In this document: positions 1-60,675 of the stretch, piece by piece | Layout of the letters: every line of letters begins with the position of its first letter | Numbering within the stretch: the stretch's first letter is position 1 | Assembly: GCA_016871315.1 (NCBI GenBank) | Contig: VFZE01000032.1 | Span: 1-64,000 of the forward strand | Reading direction: 5' to 3' | Length of the DNA: 64,000 nt | Source: Acidimicrobiia bacterium | GTDB taxonomy: Bacteria > Acidobacteriota > Terriglobia > Bryobacterales > Bryobacteraceae | Position numbers and translations under genes: made by a program | The notes under the pieces: model-generated | What the model saw: the letters and a program-made list of their open reading frames with translations, nothing else | Databases searched by the model: none | What the model was told of the DNA's origin: nothing

Positions 1-1384
1 GGCTCGTCTCCGAAAAGTGTAATTAGCGTTCGGCGGGCAGCGGCAGCCGAGCGCAGCAGTGATAGATGAGGGCGATGAAGAGGTCGGCGCTGCGGAATCC
101 GAATGAACGATGACTGATCGATTTGATCTTGTTGTTCATGCCCTCAACAGCTCCGTTGGAGAGCCGCGTTTTGGTCCAGGCAAGGATCCCATCGAAGTGG
201 GATCGGAGCATGCGCGTGAATTTCTTAAATGGTTCCAGCCGCGATCGCATCGCCGAGTTGATCCATTTGAGCAGATGTTGTTTGGCACGCCACGGCTGCT
301 TGTAGCCCCAGAAAAGCTGGAAGGATTCCTTCAAGTACCAGGCGCGGACCAGTGGCGAGTTCCAGCGCACGAGCGTGGAAAGACGCTCTTTTTGATCGTT
401 GGTCAGATTCCACGGATTCTTCAGCAGCAGCCATCGCGTACCCTTGACCTCCACCTTTTCTTTGGAGACGAGTCGGCGCCAAAGCTCGCGCCGGGTCGCA
501 TCCACTGCTTCATTGAGGTGCTTGACGATGTGGAATCGGTCGAACAGGATCTGGGCGTTGACCGCGTGGTCGCGCACAAGCTTGGCGTAGGGCGCCCACA
601 TGTCCATGCACACCACCCGCAGCGTGCGGCAGCGCCGTTTTCCCAACTCGCGGGTGAAGAACGGCCGGACCGCCTCTTCCGTTCGGTCCCCTCCCACCCA
701 CAGCAACACGCGCCGCTCCAGATCGTAAACCACCGTGAGGTACACCTGCCCTTTGCGCCGGCTCACCTCATCGATGCCGATCGCGTGCACCGGCGCTCGG
801 GCGCGGTGCTGCAATCCATAGCGCACTGCCCGCTTCACGATCGTGGCCACGCTCTTCCAGTTCAGCCCGTACTCGCGCGCCGTCCCCTGCAAACTCAACT
901 CCCGCGCCAGCACGGCCACGGCGTTGGCCAGCGCCGTCGTTACGCGCGCCCAAGGCTCTGCCCACGGAAAATCCTCCACACGAACCCCGCATCGCGGACA
1001 TTCCACCCGACGAGGGCGGTAGCGCAGTTTCAACGGCAACTTGCGCATGGACAGATCCCGCCACTCCCGCTCTGTTCGGATGTCGTGAACCTCGCGGCAT
1101 CGCCCCCGACAGACCCCGCAACGCAACAGCCGCTTACCGAGCCGGTCGATATGCACCACCATGCACTCGCCGGTCTCCTCCACCTTGATCACGGTATGAG
1201 CTTTCAAACGCAGTTGTTTTCTGATAAAGGTTTCTATGAGCACCTCGGTTCGGGTCCTTTCGTATTCCTCGGCTAGGAAACACGAAATTAACCCGATACC
1301 GGGGTGCCGCTCAAATGCCCGCCTGCCCGCAACTCCAAGCGGTCAAAGCGCTTCAACCCCCGTCACACTTTTCGGAGAGGAACC
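1..1384 (-). mobile_element. Complete ISL3-family insertion sequence
   Basis: A 20-bp terminal inverted repeat brackets the transposase: positions 1-20 and the reverse complement of 1365-1384 match at 18 of 20 bases, with a perfect 14-bp core (7-20 against 1365-1378). The GG start, the size near 1.4 kb and the single long transposase gene on the minus strand fit ISL3, a family that makes 8-bp target duplications. The right flank begins at 1385 (agatttac); the left flank lies outside the window, so the duplication cannot be checked. The left end coincides with base 1, which suggests that the source contig was broken at this repeated element. Confidence 0.9.
23..1243 (-). CDS. ISL3 family transposase
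   Basis: Full-length DDE transposase of 406 aa that would catalyse cut-and-paste movement of the surrounding element. The N-terminus carries the ISL3 zinc ribbon, with Cys42/Cys45 and Cys82/Cys85, followed by a helix-turn-helix-like stretch around residues 115-140. The catalytic triad is visible as Asp158 (in IGIDE), Asp214 (in VCMDMW) and Glu367 (in GAVEGMNNKIK), the last being the most recognisable ISL3 motif. The frame has no interruption and ends only 22 bp from the left terminus, so the element is probably still competent. The long + strand frame over the same DNA is a shadow. Confidence 0.93.
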   Translation of the reverse strand: MLIETFIRKQLRLKAHTVIKVEETGECMVVHIDRLGKRLLRCGVCRGRCREVHDIRTEREWRDLSMRKLPLKLRYRPRRVECPRCGVRVEDFPWAEPWARVTTALANAVAVLARELSLQGTAREYGLNWKSVATIVKRAVRYGLQHRARAPVHAIGIDEVSRRKGQVYLTVVYDLERRVLLWVGGDRTEEAVRPFFTRELGKRRCRTLRVVCMDMWAPYAKLVRDHAVNAQILFDRFHIVKHLNEAVDATRRELWRRLVSKEKVEVKGTRWLLLKNPWNLTNDQKERLSTLVRWNSPLVRAWYLKESFQLFWGYKQPWRAKQHLLKWINSAMRSRLEPFKKFTRMLRSHFDGILAWTKTRLSNGAVEGMNNKIKSISHRSFGFRSADLFIALIYHCCARLPLPAER

Positions 1385-12269: not shown

Positions 12270-13106
12270 TTACTGAGCCGCGAGTGAGACTGACTGGAAA
12301 AGCCCTTCGCTCATCCACTGCTGGAACATGGTGAAGAGCTGTTTGTGGCGGGCGGGTGTGTGCATTTTGTGGGCGAGGATGGCTTCGCCGAGGGTGGCGC
12401 CGGAAGCGAGTGAGATGAGGACGGCGTAGCCTTGCTTGGTAAGTTCCATCGACATGAGGGCGTAGTCACGGCGGTGGATTACCAGATAAGTTTGCTTGCG
12501 GCGGATGGGGGGTCGCGGTTTGTTGTCGCGCATGGCGCGGAGATAGAGATGGGCGGGATAGCGGAGTTCGATCAGATGGAATGCGGCAATGGGGGTGAGG
12601 CGCGCGTCGGGCCAGGATTCCTCGGGCACGGCGGCGATTTGCTGCTGGGTGAGGGCGGGGGTCTCCTCGGCGTCAAAGACGATGGATTGCGCATGCTCCA
12701 GGCGGGCCAGATCCTGCACGAATTTCTCGCGCGGCAGACCTTCGACATCGGGGATGAAGCCGGGGAGGTTGTCGCCGAGGCGGTTGAGGGTGTAGGTGCG
12801 CGAGGGGTTCTCGCCGATGTAGAGGCTGGCTAGCTCGGCAAAGCGATGCTCGCCGAGGAAGTCGGCGAGGCCGGGATAGTCGACCTCCAGAGCTTCTGAA
12901 AGCCGGGCTTCATACATGCCGCGATAGATGTCGAGGCGTTCGAGCGGCTCCATCGTCTTGGAGGGGAGGATCATCCCGGTGGCCTGCGCGGCAGGGACTT
13001 CGGCGGCGACGGCTTCGGCGGCGACGGCCGATTCGCAATCGCCGGGGGTCATGATGGCGGCCTGCATCCAGCGCTGGGTTCGCACCAAGCCGGGATCAAG
13101 CGGCAT
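12270..13106 (-). CDS. bufC: BufC-like DUF2063 partner protein of the MNIO enzyme
   Basis: A 278-aa protein whose N-terminal DUF2063 domain shows the family signature: RTQRWMQAAI near residue 8-17, then LDIYRGMYEARLSEALEVDYP. In RiPP systems of the bufferin, TglHI and HvfABC types this family presents the precursor to the DUF692 oxygenase. The C-terminal half (LIELRYPAHLYLRAM, YLVIHRRDYALMSMEL) is the usual second, winged-helix-like part. ATG 13106 is chosen because GGAGGAA precedes it and because earlier codons in the frame lie inside bufB. The gene overlaps bufB by 11 bp, so translation is probably coupled. Confidence 0.88.
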   Translation of the reverse strand: MPLDPGLVRTQRWMQAAIMTPGDCESAVAAEAVAAEVPAAQATGMILPSKTMEPLERLDIYRGMYEARLSEALEVDYPGLADFLGEHRFAELASLYIGENPSRTYTLNRLGDNLPGFIPDVEGLPREKFVQDLARLEHAQSIVFDAEETPALTQQQIAAVPEESWPDARLTPIAAFHLIELRYPAHLYLRAMRDNKPRPPIRRKQTYLVIHRRDYALMSMELTKQGYAVLISLASGATLGEAILAHKMHTPARHKQLFTMFQQWMSEGLFQSVSLAAQ

Positions 13107-13944
13107 GAGGTTCCTCCACGGGCGCTTCACGATACTGGCGGGCCTTGAGAGCTTCGGCGTGGACAATGTCGAAGGCGGGGATGTCCTCATCCCATTCGAG
13201 CAGGGTGGCGATGCCACCCATGCGGCGGTAGACGCGGCGGTAGAGATCCCAAACCTCATCGATGACGTGGTCGGAGTGTGTGTCGAGAATGTGCGTGCCT
13301 TTGTTGGTGTGTCCGGCGAGATGGATCTGCACGACGCGGTCCGGCGGAATGCGGTCGATGTACTCGCGCGGGTCGAAGCCGTGGTTATAGGAGCTGACGT
13401 AGACGTTGTTGACGTCGAGAAGCAGGCCGCAATCGGCCTCTTCGGCGAGGGTGGCGAGGAAGTCCCATTCGGTCCAATGGGAGGCGCTGAATTCGAGATA
13501 GGTGGAGGGGTTCTCGAGCACGAGCGGACGCTCCAGAAACTCGGAGATGGTCTTCACTCGCTGGATGGTGTGGCGCAGCGCTTCGCCGGTGTAGGGCATC
13601 GGCAACAGATCATGCGTATTGAGGCCGGCGACGCCGGTCCAGCAGAGATGATCGGAGACCCAGTGGGCGCGAGTGCGCGCGGCGAGAGTTTTCAGCTTGC
13701 CGAGAAAGTCGAAGTTGATCGGATCGGTGCTGCCGACGGACATGGAGACGCCGTGAAGGACAATAGGGTAGCGCTCTGCCACCTGGTCCAGGACGTAGCT
13801 TGGCCGTCCGCCCGTGTCCATGAAGTTTTCGCTGAGGACTTCAAACCAGTCGATGGAAGGCTGGTGCGAGAGGATATGAGAAAAATGGACGGTTCTCAGG
13901 CCGATGCCGAAGCCGAGATCCGAATATCCCCAACGGTTTGCCAT
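13096..13944 (-). CDS. bufB: BufB-like DUF692 multinuclear non-haem iron oxygenase
   Basis: TIM-barrel enzyme of the MNIO (DUF692) family, which uses a two- or three-iron centre and O2 to modify cysteines of precursor peptides, for example into thiooxazoles in bufferins. Conserved elements are all present: GFGIGLR, DWFEVLSENF, VLHGVSMSVGS, WVSDHLCWTG, LENPSTYLEF, LLLDVNNVYVSSYNHG, QIHLAGHTN, DTHSDHV and LLEWDEDIP, which supply the His, Asp and Glu ligands. I prefer ATG 13944, giving 282 aa as usual for the family; the alternative ATG 14013 adds 23 residues with no resemblance. It sits between the Cys-rich precursor and the DUF2063 gene. Confidence 0.92.
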   Translation of the reverse strand: MANRWGYSDLGFGIGLRTVHFSHILSHQPSIDWFEVLSENFMDTGGRPSYVLDQVAERYPIVLHGVSMSVGSTDPINFDFLGKLKTLAARTRAHWVSDHLCWTGVAGLNTHDLLPMPYTGEALRHTIQRVKTISEFLERPLVLENPSTYLEFSASHWTEWDFLATLAEEADCGLLLDVNNVYVSSYNHGFDPREYIDRIPPDRVVQIHLAGHTNKGTHILDTHSDHVIDEVWDLYRRVYRRMGGIATLLEWDEDIPAFDIVHAEALKARQYREAPVEEPHAA

Positions 13945-14022
13945 GGCAGGTTTCGTTTGGATCGGAGCAGCGCCGGACCGGTTAGATAGCGTGCCCGGCG
14001 CCGCCAATATCATGCTACGCGA

Positions 14023-14397
14023 TCAGGCGTGAACGGCACGGTTGCGCTTGCGCAGCGACATCTTCTGCAATGGAACGGCGCAGCCACCCTTGCCCTTGCA
14101 GCTGTTCTTGCCGGCGCAGCCCTTGTCGCCCGACTTGCAGCCACCCTGGCCCTTGCACTCATTCATGCCTTGGCATCCGTGTTTGGCTGCCGTGGCGCAG
14201 CCACCCTTGCCCTTGCACGAGTTCTTGCCGGCGCAGCCCTTGTCGCCGGACTTACAGCCGCCCTGCCCCTTGCAGGCGTTCTTACCCTTACAGACATGCT
14301 TGGCGGCTTTGTCCTGAGCGGCGGCGCGCGTGGCGGCGGTGGTCATCATGCCGGAAACCGCTGCTCCCACGGCGACGGCGAAGTTCCTTCGAGTCAT
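14023..14397 (-). CDS. bufA2: Cys-rich bufferin-type RiPP precursor (BufA2-like) with Tat signal
   Basis: A 124-aa precursor preceded by AAGGAGAT. The N-terminus has a twin-arginine signal (TRRNF at residues 2-6, hydrophobic stretch to about 22, cleavage expected near Ala27-Gln28), so the product is probably exported folded. The mature region has 12 cysteines at 36, 42, 48, 55, 61, 67, 75, 81, 87, 94, 100 and 106, spaced mostly C-x5-C within CKGxGGC-type motifs rich in Lys and Gly. Residues about 36-74 and 75-113 are a near-perfect tandem copy. This is the BufA2 pattern: such peptides are modified by BufB/BufC and bind copper in the periplasm. Metal and modification here are inferred. Confidence 0.88.
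   Translation of the reverse strand: MTRRNFAVAVGAAVSGMMTTAATRAAAQDKAAKHVCKGKNACKGQGGCKSGDKGCAGKNSCKGKGGCATAAKHGCQGMNECKGQGGCKSGDKGCAGKNSCKGKGGCAVPLQKMSLRKRNRAVHA
14078..14311. repeat. Two 117-bp tandem repeats inside the RiPP precursor gene
   Basis: Positions 14078-14194 and 14195-14311 are two in-frame copies of 117 bp (39 codons). The first 60 bases of each are almost identical; the rest differ partly at third codon positions and in a few residues. Each unit encodes six cysteines. This is internal duplication of the core peptide, not a CRISPR-like array. Confidence 0.9.
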
Positions 14398-14434
14398 ATT
14401 GTTTTATCTCCTTACCAGGTGTTGAGGTGTAACG

Positions 14435-14451
14435 GGACCCAGTAAGGGTCC
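14435..14451 (-). promoter_or_regulatory. Small inverted repeat in the bufA2 leader
   Basis: GGACCC (14435-14440) pairs with GGGTCC (14446-14451) around a 5-base spacer, 38 bp upstream of the precursor start codon. It could be a regulator site or a leader hairpin. The 170-bp gap between this operon and the gene at 14570 shows no clear sigma-70 boxes. Confidence 0.35.
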
Positions 14452-14569
14452 GCAACAAGGTTTACGCTCCCCAAACATAGCACGGATGCATGTTGAGGGA
14501 GGATTAACATCCATCGCATAGTTCTTCGCAGCGGCGGCGTTTTCGGTTACGCGAGCTCAGAGTGAAGGG

Positions 14570-15040
14570 TCAGAGATTTGGGCCCGTGGGGTTCTGGAAA
14601 CGGGGATTGCAAACGGGGCCCCAAGGGGCAAAACCGAGAATGAGATCGTTGCGATTGACCCAGAGAAACACCTGCTCGCCCTTGCCGAAATCGAGGCCTT
14701 GAATCACGCCGCTGGAGCAGGAGCGCTTCTCGGTTTTTTTGGCGGCCGCGGCATCGGGGCGAGGGCTCTGCGGGCCCCAGTCCTCGAGAAATTTTTCGAG
14801 AGAGTAGTCGCGGCAGGGATTCTTCTCGGTGCAACCCCAGAGAGCGTATGCTTCGTTGTAACGCTTGTTGCCGAGATGGTCGAGGAAGGTCTGGATCTGT
14901 TTCTCCTCGCGATAGTCGCGGAAAAGGAAATAGAGCACACCGGTGATGAGGATCAGGGCGCCAAGGGCGATAAAGATGCGCTTGCGCAGCCGTTCGCGGC
15001 GCGCATCGTCGACGCCGTAGCCGTCCATGTAGCCGGCCAT
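14570..15040 (-). CDS. Hypothetical single-span membrane protein
   Basis: A 156-aa protein with a charged cytoplasmic start, one membrane segment (about residues 23-41) and a periplasmic domain of about 110 residues containing a run that resembles small lumazine-binding-like or DUF4878-type folds (TFLDHLGNKRYNEAYALW; DYSLEKFLEDWG). Three to four cysteines lie in the periplasmic part. It starts 10 bp after the OmpH/Skp gene, so the two are probably co-transcribed. No function is assigned. Confidence 0.65.
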   Translation of the reverse strand: MAGYMDGYGVDDARRERLRKRIFIALGALILITGVLYFLFRDYREEKQIQTFLDHLGNKRYNEAYALWGCTEKNPCRDYSLEKFLEDWGPQSPRPDAAAAKKTEKRSCSSGVIQGLDFGKGEQVFLWVNRNDLILGFAPWGPVCNPRFQNPTGPNL

Positions 15041-26157: not shown

Positions 26158-27279
26158 ATGCTAGACCGTCGCGAATTCCTTGCCGCATCTCTTTCGGCCG
26201 CCGTCGCCAGCAAGGCCGCCGCCGCGCCGCCAGCCTCCGCCGCCCCCGAATGGCGCAACCGCCAGTCCGGCATCAGCTACCGCCAGCTCGGCCGCACCGG
26301 CTTCATGATCTCGGAAGTCGTCATGGGCGGCAACACCATCTCACCCGATAACTACGAGCATGTCCTGCTCGCCATGGACATGGGCCTCAACTATCTCGAC
26401 ACCGCCCCCGCCTACGGCAACACCAAATCCGAACTCGGCTACGCCAAGGTCATCGCCGCCCGCAAGCGCGACAGCTTCTTCCTCAACACCAAGATCAGCG
26501 CCTGGGACATCAATCGCATCAAGTTGTACAAGGACATCTTCGACAGCCTCCCGGAACCTGACCAGAAGAAGCTACGCCACCAGGCCCAGGACGAGCTCGC
26601 CCGCCGCCGCGCGCTCGACTCCGATTACCTCGGCAACTACTTCGCCTCCCAGACCGCCGAACTCGAAGGCTCCGCCCTCGCCAACGTCATGGAGAAAACC
26701 TACGGCGCCAGAATCGACCGCGGTAAGAACTACAAGCAGCTCATCCTCGACTCGCTCGATGCCAGCCTCAAGCGGCTCGGCACGGATCACGTCGACCTGC
26801 TCATGTGCCCCCACGGCGCATCCACTCCCGCCGAGCTCACCCGCCACCCGGAAATCTTCGAAGCCTTCGAGATCATCAAAAAGCAGGGCAAGGCCCGCCA
26901 TCTCGGCTTCTCTGCCCACAACGACCCCGCCGGAATTCTCGAAGCCGCCGTCCAGGCCAAGCTCTACTCCGCCGCCATGGTCGCCTTCAACATCGTTAAC
27001 CGCGCCTACACCGAAAAGGCCGTCGAGCACGCCCGCAAGAACAACCTCGGCGTCATCGCCATGAAGGTCGCCCGCCCCGTCTTCAACGGCCGCAATGCAG
27101 GCATCAAGGACGACCCCAAACGCGTCCAGCTCATCGAAGCCGCCGTCCCCGGCCCCCTCAAGATCCCGCAGAAAGCCTACATCTGGGCCCTCCGCAACCC
27201 CAACCTCAGCGCCGTCATCAGCGAACTCGTCAACGCCGGCATGGTCCGCGACAACCTCCCTCTGGCCGCCAAGGCTTGA
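26158..27279 (+). CDS. Tat-exported aldo/keto reductase
   Basis: A 373-aa protein with a twin-arginine signal (DRREFLAASLSAAVA, residues 3-17, cleavage near 28). The barrel shows the AKR tetrad: Asp and Tyr in YLDTAPAYGNTKSELG, Lys in FFLNTKIS and His in LLMCPHG. An insertion around residues 125-185 (DSLPEPDQKKLRHQ to YGARIDRGKNYK) is longer than in typical enzymes. It reduces, or oxidises, a carbonyl or sugar substrate with NAD(P)H; a Tat signal implies cofactor loading before export. TACAAT lies 9 bp before the ATG. Confidence 0.85.
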   Translation: MLDRREFLAASLSAAVASKAAAAPPASAAPEWRNRQSGISYRQLGRTGFMISEVVMGGNTISPDNYEHVLLAMDMGLNYLDTAPAYGNTKSELGYAKVIAARKRDSFFLNTKISAWDINRIKLYKDIFDSLPEPDQKKLRHQAQDELARRRALDSDYLGNYFASQTAELEGSALANVMEKTYGARIDRGKNYKQLILDSLDASLKRLGTDHVDLLMCPHGASTPAELTRHPEIFEAFEIIKKQGKARHLGFSAHNDPAGILEAAVQAKLYSAAMVAFNIVNRAYTEKAVEHARKNNLGVIAMKVARPVFNGRNAGIKDDPKRVQLIEAAVPGPLKIPQKAYIWALRNPNLSAVISELVNAGMVRDNLPLAAKA

Positions 27280-59319: not shown

Positions 59320-60675
59320 ATGAAGGACAGAACCAGACGTGATTTTGTTGTCGGGACGGCGCTCGGCGCCGGCGCCGCATTCTCACAGAACCCGGCGGCC
59401 AATCAAGTCCGGCTGGGAGTGGTCGGTTTCCGCGGCCGCGGCCGCGACCATTACCGCAGCTTCGCGCGCATTCCCGGCGTCAAGGTTGCCTACCTGTGCG
59501 ACATTGACGAGCGGCTCTTTCCCGCCGCCGTGCAGGAGGTGGAGCAACTGGGCGGCGACCGTCCGGAGACCTTCGTCGATATCAGAAAAATGCTGGAGCG
59601 GAAGGATCTCGACGCCATCTCCATCGCCACTCCCGACCACTGGCACGCGCTGCACGCGATCTGGGGCTGCCAGGCAGGCAAGGATGTCTATGTCGAAAAA
59701 CCCGTCTCGCACAACCTCTACGAGGGCCGGAAGATGGTGGAGGCCGCCCGGAAATACGGGCGTATGATGCAGGCCGGGCTGAACCGGCGCAGTGAAAGGC
59801 GGAACCTCGCCGGCGTGCGCTATGTGCAGCAGGGTGCGCTGGGCAAGGCCTATCGCGCGAAAGCTGTCGTCTACCGCGGCCGGACTACCATCGGCAAAGT
59901 GCAGGAAGCTTCAATTCCCGCCGGCGTGCACTGGGACGTGTTTCTCGGTCCCGCCCCGTATCGCGCCTACACGCTGAACCGGTTCCACTACGGTTGGCAT
60001 TATTACTGGGACACGGCCACCACGGAAGTGGGCAACAACGGCGTCCACGCGATCGACATCGTGCGCTGGGGACTGGGCAAAAACACGCATCCGGTGAAGG
60101 TGACCTGTTCCGGTGGCCGGTTCGAAGACGATTCCGACCAGGAAACGCCCAACTATCAAAACGCTACCTTTGAATATGCCGACGGCACGCTTGTGGATCT
60201 GGAGGCGACGACGCTGCCCAGCCCGCCGTTCGGCGGCGTGCATATGGGCGAGTTTTTCTACACCGCGCGCGGCTACGTAACTTCGGCCAACAAGTGGAGC
60301 ACCGTCCTCGGCGAGTTCACCCCGCGCGAAACGCCCGATCCGCCGTCCGGAGTCTCCAACCGGCTGAACAACGTCAGCTTCCCCCAGATCGCCTACAAAC
60401 CCGGCCCGGCCATCCCCGATGTCGAAGGAGAGGAAGTCAGTCACTTCCAGAACTTCATCAACTGCGTCCGCTCGCGCAAGCGAGAAGATCTCGCCTGCGA
60501 GATTCTGGAAGGCCATCTATCCACCTCGCTGTGCCACCTCGCGAACATCGCGTTCCGAACGGGAAGGAAGCTGACTTTCGATCCGGCCACGGAGACCTTC
60601 CCCGGCGACCGCGACGCGAATGCGCTGCTTCGCCGCAAGTATCGTGAACCCTACGTGCTACCGGATCCGGTGTGA
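59320..60675 (+). CDS. Tat-exported Gfo/Idh/MocA family oxidoreductase
   Basis: A 451-aa NAD(P)-dependent oxidoreductase with a twin-arginine signal (TRRDFVVGTALGAGAAF, residues 5-21). The Rossmann start RLGVVGFRGRGRDHYRSF, IATPDHWHALHA and the catalytic VEKPVSHNLYEG are conserved. The C-terminal half (MGEFFYTARGYVTSANKW; EEVSHFQNFINCVRSRKREDL) is the family beta sheet. Exported members act on sugars or cyclitols in the periplasm or at the membrane. It lies 7 bp after the PQQ dehydrogenase gene and probably shares its transcript. Confidence 0.88.
   Translation: MKDRTRRDFVVGTALGAGAAFSQNPAANQVRLGVVGFRGRGRDHYRSFARIPGVKVAYLCDIDERLFPAAVQEVEQLGGDRPETFVDIRKMLERKDLDAISIATPDHWHALHAIWGCQAGKDVYVEKPVSHNLYEGRKMVEAARKYGRMMQAGLNRRSERRNLAGVRYVQQGALGKAYRAKAVVYRGRTTIGKVQEASIPAGVHWDVFLGPAPYRAYTLNRFHYGWHYYWDTATTEVGNNGVHAIDIVRWGLGKNTHPVKVTCSGGRFEDDSDQETPNYQNATFEYADGTLVDLEATTLPSPPFGGVHMGEFFYTARGYVTSANKWSTVLGEFTPRETPDPPSGVSNRLNNVSFPQIAYKPGPAIPDVEGEEVSHFQNFINCVRSRKREDLACEILEGHLSTSLCHLANIAFRTGRKLTFDPATETFPGDRDANALLRRKYREPYVLPDPV

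Follow-up and report, generated by a model that had tools for sequence, protein, structure and literature searches.

A bufferin-type operon of a Bryobacteraceae genome whose precursor peptide carries a putative twin-arginine export signal

The bufABC Operon and Its Unusual Signal

By which route does a bufferin precursor leave the cytoplasm, and can its modification be finished before it does so? This question is raised by a three-gene operon, bufA-bufB-bufC, in which all genes lie on the minus strand and which spans positions 12270-14397 of a 64,000-nucleotide stretch of contig VFZE01000032.1 (GenBank assembly GCA_016871315.1, Bryobacteraceae); this whole stretch is called the window in the following. 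The most unusual feature of the operon, which is absent from an earlier note on the same DNA, is the twin-arginine signal of the precursor BufA, whose N-terminus (MTRRNFAVAVGAAVSGMM) opens with M-T-R-R-N-F. Judged from the sequences, the operon belongs with the type-2 bufferins by its enzymes and its core, whereas its export signal sets it apart as a variant that has not been described before. Coordinates are given in Table 1, and statements on cited papers refer to the passages of these papers that are drawn on here.

BufB matched the NCBIfam model NF050167 (MNIO_BufB) with 359.2 bits (E 1.1e-107), which is above the cut-off of 310, and PF05114 with 362.7 bits. It could also be aligned to the solved DUF692 protein PDB 3bww (E 2.5e-49), whereby the common His, Asp and Glu stretches, which we take to be metal ligands, were seen by eye to be retained. 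BufC passed the cut-off of PF09836 (DUF2063; 60.9 bits, cut-off 27.2) and remained below that of the HvfC model (36.4 bits, cut-off 142). The structure model of BufC is a confident one (predicted local distance difference test score, pLDDT, 95.4), and a Foldseek search with this model yielded matches to 8hi7_A, a chain of the TglHI complex that presumably is TglI, and to 3dee, the DUF2063 protein NGO1945. BufA matched NF050166 (Cu_RiPP_BufA2) in two stretches (E 1.9e-15, 56.8 bits) and narrowly missed the cut-off of 60, for which reason it is termed a bufferin-type variant here. The profile matches of all three predicted proteins are far beyond chance. The gene set bufA2-bufB-bufC is thus supported by the profiles, by the gene order and by the modelled fold of BufC, and the operon is almost certainly of the bufferin type. 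The earlier note had described a gene for a Cys-rich exported peptide, a DUF692 MNIO gene and a DUF2063 gene that run in one direction with an 11-bp overlap of the last two (13096-13106), with which the open reading frames (ORFs) and the profile matches agree; its assignment as a bufferin gene set is borne out by the NF050167 score over the cut-off, the DUF2063 match and the BufA2 profile match.

Table 1. Positions of the operon genes, of parts of the BufA precursor and of upstream elements in the window.
Feature	Position	Strand	Description and basis
bufA	14023..14397	-	124 amino acids; 12-Cys type-2 bufferin precursor; ORF and NF050166 match
bufB	13096..14013	-	305 amino acids; MNIO (DUF692) maturase; NF050167, PF05114 and PDB 3bww matches
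bufC	12270..13106	-	278 amino acids; DUF2063 partner protein; PF09836, structure model, Foldseek
Signal peptide M-TRRNF-AVAVGAAVSGMMTTAATRAAA	14314..14397	-	predicted, residues ~1-28; cleavage site inferred from A-x-A
Twin-arginine motif R3-R4-N5-F6	14380..14391	-	sequence
Core unit 1	14197..14292	-	C36 to C67, 6 Cys
Core unit 2	14080..14175	-	C75 to C106, 6 Cys
Shine-Dalgarno sequence AAGGAG before the bufA ATG	14408..14413	-	sequence
Upstream element TGCTATGTTTGGGGAGCGTAAACC	14459..14482	-	almost unchanged in L021, a locus from the same genus; read by eye

The consensus of the signal motif of the twin-arginine translocase (Tat) is S-R-R-x-F-L-K. BufA reads T-R-R-N-F-A-V at this place, so that the twin Arg and the F are present and the consensus L and K are absent. 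The ATG start of bufA, on which the position of the motif depends, is supported by the Shine-Dalgarno sequence AAGGAG, which lies at the right distance. All 15 RR-type acidobacterial loci inspected have such a sequence ahead of their MxRR start (13 of the 18 RR-type acidobacterial rows of the de-replicated set described below, together with the loci L021 and L058). The genome from which the window derives also encodes TatC (E 8.4e-60).

The RRxF Motif Is Constrained in Bufferin-Like Signals

Loci for a census of the motif came from a BufB scan of genome contigs (the best 80 of at least 571 loci), from relatives, and from a search of the phylum Acidobacteriota (minus its last four matches). In total, 178 loci were examined, from which 113 de-replicated loci entered the census; left out were 15 near-duplicates, 25 loci without a recognisable core-bearing precursor, 14 with a core score below 1.2 and 11 for which the BufB start had been misassigned. 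RRxF occurs at the hydrophobic core of the signal in 35 of the 113 loci, and in this setting it is strict: of the 36 RR pairs near the hydrophobic core, 35 continue with x-F and one, in L075, does not (RRVV). None of the 34 remaining pairs of adjacent basic residues (KK 19, RK 11, KR 4; some of these overlap an RR) continues in this way. The flanks of the motif vary over the 35 rows, with N, T, D, K, S or E before the pair and D, E, K, N, T or Q after it. The pair itself is encoded by 16 different codon pairs, and 14 of the 35 contain AGA or AGG, which are one step from Lys. Among the 11 loci with a misassigned BufB start, four are of the RR type (L021, L053, L071, L105; the first two are the same locus, the nearest relative of the window) and seven are not, and in none of the 11 does another basic pair stand before x-F. 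Outside the bufferins RRxF was found in 3 of 133 signal-like genes (at least 150 amino acids) of the same loci, two of which are the window genes at 26158 and 59320, called aldo/keto-reductase-like and Gfo/Idh-like, respectively, after matches below the cut-off. These data indicate that the RR next to the hydrophobic core of bufferin-like signals is under constraint, whereby this statement rests on the census of basic pairs and on clades that are defined by BufB. The invariance of R3, R4 and F6 in the alignment A1 was discarded as evidence because the rows of this alignment had been picked by RRxF and the argument would be circular.

Distribution of the RR Type and the BufB Tree

A BufB over the cut-off was found in 57 of 396 genomes of Acidobacteriota, 37 of 199 of Planctomycetota and 42 of 200 of Pseudomonadota. 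The family, which the earlier note had described as known mainly from Proteobacteria, is therefore not rare outside of this phylum, and not in Acidobacteriota either. In the BufB tree all 7 members of the clade of the window (support 98) are of the RR type, as are all 16 members of a second clade (support 99), which is composed of 15 Planctomycetota and one Verrucomicrobiota. Over the whole tree the RR label needs 7 changes, or 6 without remote rows, compared to 30.1 with shuffled labels; the well-supported (starred) branches alone force only 1. A tree in which all RR rows are grouped, as expected for a single origin, was marginally rejected in the approximately unbiased test (p-AU 0.031; 89 rows, after removal of seven named rows and of rows with BufB below 215 bits). 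With 6-7 state changes, gain and loss of RR are not distinguishable on this tree. Precursors without RRxF are also found among the RR rows, namely in L038, L068, L039 and L154.

Separate samples of 30 loci per phylum, mostly the highest-scoring ones, were taken without de-replication; four of these loci lie in genomes already used. In the Planctomycetota sample, RRxF was found by script in 14 of 28 precursors and in 15 when L208 is added, where KRRDF was read by eye; L217 probably has no signal-bearing precursor. In the Pseudomonadota sample, RRxF was found in 0 of 29, a comparison that is not like for like, as the sample includes 21 four-Cys precursors that resemble Buf1. Two precursors of the sample have RR without F (L233 RRTL, L236 RRTV), L235 has KKSF, and for L251 probably the wrong ORF was taken. 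The Pseudomonadota rows of the 113-row census likewise contained no RRxF (0 of 7). Within the family of the window itself, a six-Cys Sec-like type occurs (L016, L018-L020); of these, L018 and L020 are in the tree, where their BufB groups with other genomes of the same class. The two types occur together in one genome (G454), which has an RR-type operon with 10 Cys in the precursor and a Sec-like one with 4 (L254, L255), whereby this 11 Mb assembly may be mixed.

The Doubled Core of BufA

The 12 Cys of BufA are distributed over two six-Cys units, which are 81% identical to each other. The earlier note had regarded a copy in an acidobacterium with this long doubled core as unstudied. As to the acidobacterial occurrence, no paper on an acidobacterial bufferin was among those listed by literature searches; the core itself is no novelty, since Buf2 precursors with 12 Cys have been published as a minority class. 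According to PMC12452194, 6 Cys are found in 90% of the Buf2 precursors and 12 in the others, and the duplicated domain has been modelled in one. A comparison of 13 precursors including that of the window gave identities of 78% between the halves of one precursor, 77% for the same half across species and 73% for opposite halves across species; it includes L156, whose halves were wrongly cut. In L022 and L062 the same cysteine is missing from both halves (GGAPGKN replaces GGCAGKN), which suggests a concerted evolution, and the two halves thus seem to evolve together. A different core, consisting of 14 CKGEK units, accompanies an RR-type signal and like enzymes in L041 (912-1385) and L066 (Blastocatellia bacterium).

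Proposed Mechanism

For BufA, modification to 5-thiooxazoles and binding of copper would be expected by analogy with the systems described in PMC13097082 and PMC12452194. Overall, the locus is probably best explained as a type-2 bufABC operon with two six-Cys units, of which the peptide would be modified by BufBC, exported by Tat and used as a metal buffer in the periplasm. BufC would bind the signal/leader region of BufA, and BufB, together with BufC, would oxidise this peptide at Cys residues while it is still in the cytoplasm; 5-thiooxazoles are the most likely products. We infer that the modified BufA would then leave through the Tat translocase rather than through the general secretory (Sec) pathway. 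In the periplasm it would serve as a buffer for copper or another soft metal. Tat works post-translationally and takes folded cargo, and therefore the modification could be finished before export. The Discussion of PMC12452194 asks how premature export is avoided, and a Tat signal would answer this question of how export awaits modification. There is a precedent for such an order of events, as copper oxidases of the CopA/CueO kind exit by Tat, probably in the copper-loaded form (PMC10304878).

It could also be that the peptide serves another metal, or that it is not exported at all and acts as a metal sink in the cytoplasm. Roles beyond copper are expected in PMC12452194, bufferin operons have also been named gold-induced genes, and no metal gene was recognised among the scanned neighbours of the operon. 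On the other hand, the signal-like N-terminus with start codon and Shine-Dalgarno sequence in 15 of 15 loci, together with an A-x-A after the hydrophobic core in 24 of the 35 RR-type precursors, favours export, and we consider another metal or a sink to be a rather unlikely explanation.

Export by Tat or by Sec

As a group, the RR-type signals have Tat-like statistics. Lys in place of Arg is poorly tolerated in Tat signals and makes no difference in Sec signals, and Tat signals have cores of lower hydrophobicity that contain fewer Leu and more Gly than those of Sec signals (PMC7317946). The mean hydrophobicity of the core was 1.81 in the RR rows compared to 2.09 in the non-RR rows as a whole (78 rows, p 4e-5) and to 2.15 in 35 hand-picked BufA2-like non-RR rows (p 4e-7), and the fraction of Leu was 0.08 compared to 0.18 in the latter 35 (p 8e-7), whereby all of these p-values ignore the shared ancestry of the rows. 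Tat-signal profiles were matched at E up to 10 by more of the 35 RR-type precursors than of the 35 others, namely TIGR02811 by 10 and 1, TIGR01409 by 8 and 0, and PF10399 by 8 and 0, respectively. Taken together, the sequence data make export of these bufferins by Tat quite likely.

Several points weigh against this interpretation. Among them is the just-mentioned ancestry of the rows. An enrichment of Gly in the RR-type signals was not found in comparison with the 35 others, and the consensus Leu directly after RRxF is present in 1 of 35 only. The Tat-profile matches of the RR-type relatives are weak (best E 1.7e-4), and the precursor of the window does not match the Tat-signal profiles up to E 10. 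TatC was found in 20 of 24 RR genomes (none is shown in the other 4, which are metagenome-assembled genomes) and in 11 of 12 non-RR genomes, and is thus useless as a discriminator of the RR type. AlphaFold predicted no fold for the BufA precursor (mean pLDDT 44.7), and Tat prefers folded cargo. Moreover, RR signals are also acceptable to Sec. SignalP 6 reportedly predicts all five signal types, as the title of its paper says. The bufferin survey predicted signals with this program and reports no Tat signal (PMC12452194).

The weak or absent profile matches are not decisive, because the Gfo/Idh-like protein at 59320, which starts with RTRRDF and can serve as a yardstick, remained with its 15.3 bits below the TIGR01409 cut-off of 16.7, and the window protein at 26158 did not match this profile. 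With respect to the survey, the main text of PMC12452194 contains neither Tat nor twin-arginine; precursors were sorted there by the presence or absence of a predicted Sec signal and the families were then gathered by profile, so that RR-type members may well be within its sets. As a side observation, BufB (2413951-2414724) and TatC (2422703-2423332) of the locus L056 are encoded about 8 kb apart on one chromosome (genome G455). A linkage of bufABC and tatC was seen in this one genome, and in the other 19 RR genomes that have both the contigs differ; the drafts would allow linkage, and the single case is treated as a coincidence.

The absence of a Tat signal from the survey and of a Tat-profile match for the precursor of the window would fit an ordinary type-2 bufferin that is exported by Sec and whose RR merely reflects an n-region rich in Arg, as part of a GC-rich genome. 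Sec is the export route given for bufferins in PMC12452194, and RR as such is not rare, as it makes up 24 of the 43 adjacent basic pairs in the 133 background genes. Such an n-region would not account for the strict x-F after RR, which KK, RK and KR lack, nor for the preservation of RR over 16 codon pairs where Lys and Arg are indistinct to Sec (PMC7317946), and the RR-type signals also differ by their lower hydrophobicity and fewer Leu, so that we regard Sec export as unlikely. RRxF might instead be an element of the leader that the BufB-BufC complex reads, and not an export signal. This would accord with preliminary results by which the signal peptide is part of the BufBC recognition sequence (PMC12452194, Discussion), yet it is highly improbable, since related BufB/BufC pairs accompany precursors without RRxF (the four loci named above), since RRxF is the Tat motif, and since what both groups share is a core motif of small residues and Gly (28 of 35 RR, 22 of 35 non-RR) and not RR.

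If export by Tat is accepted, a further possibility can be put forward tentatively. The RR-type loci of Acidobacteriota and Planctomycetota, together with single Verrucomicrobiota and Armatimonadota loci, might constitute a second, Tat-exported bufferin branch. The translocase, which prefers folded cargo, would then serve as a check-point and let pass only peptide that is both modified by BufBC and, already in the cytoplasm, folded with its metal. In this case, RR-type bufferins would not only bind metal in the periplasm but would export it from the cytoplasm, and they would be the first natural Tat-exported ribosomally synthesized and post-translationally modified peptides (RiPPs); neither a Tat-exported bufferin nor a natural Tat-exported RiPP was found among the papers listed by literature searches or in passages of further bufferin-related papers, among which the original bufferin paper was not covered. 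A comparison of RR-type with Sec-type bufferins that have related enzymes would put the question to a direct test, and the answer bears on the site of metal loading.

Upstream Region and Neighbouring Genes

The upstream element listed in Table 1 is, from its sequence, probably part of the promoter. An inverted repeat, GGACCC-5-GGGTCC, was read by eye near 14440; an operator common to the relatives was not supported, as a script limited to perfect 7-base dyads found none that is shared across 15 upstream regions. For bufB, the similarity to most, not all, relatives starts near an alternative ATG at 13944 (MANRWGY...), which may be the true start. Upstream of bufA, a gene for a membrane-protein-like protein of 156 amino acids (14570-15040, minus strand) gave no NCBIfam or Pfam match at E 0.01, and L053, a locus of the same genus, has a homologue in the corresponding position. 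A protein of 406 amino acids that resembles, as we assume, an ISL3-type transposase is encoded at 23-1243 (minus strand). On another contig of the same genome (C50; locus L005, 5753-7551), a second MNIO has as its neighbour a membrane protein with a Cys/Gly-rich tail at its end, which matched TIGR04222 with 85.1 bits (cut-off 43); proteins of this type have been reported mostly from Actinomycetota (PMC12452194).

Comparison With Known Systems

The closest known systems are the type-2 bufferins (Buf2, BUF_6/12Cys; NF050166), with which the operon shares the order bufABC, a BufB over the equivalog cut-off, a DUF2063 partner and 12 Cys in a duplicated six-Cys core. It differs from them in the twin-arginine signal, where theirs is described as Sec, and in a BufA score that is 3 bits under the cut-off of the model. 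The enzyme pair and the gene order are also those of bufferins 1 and 2 from Caulobacter vibrioides, from which the copper role is proposed by analogy; these are, in contrast, described as Sec-exported (PMC12452194). Thiooxazoles have been assigned for Buf1 of C. vibrioides, whereas the modification of Buf2 has not yet been identified according to the same paper. In the captophorins/oxazolins (fontiphorin, H. influenzae oxazolin, gonophorin), an MNIO and a type-1 partner install 5-thiooxazoles on Cys and the products bind copper (PMC13097082). The combination of an MNIO with a type-1 partner (DUF2063) is found in the window too, but the captophorins/oxazolins carry EGKCG repeats instead of the CKGxNxCKGxGGC core of BufA. 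With cofactor-bearing Tat substrates, finally, as represented by the Rieske signal (PF10399), the RR-type bufferins share RRxF and a Leu-poor, weakly hydrophobic core, and the 8 of 35 precursors that match this profile do so weakly. The difference lies in the cargo, which in the window is a peptide of about 95 residues that presumably is Cys-modified and, as judged from the model, apparently unfolded without metal or modification.

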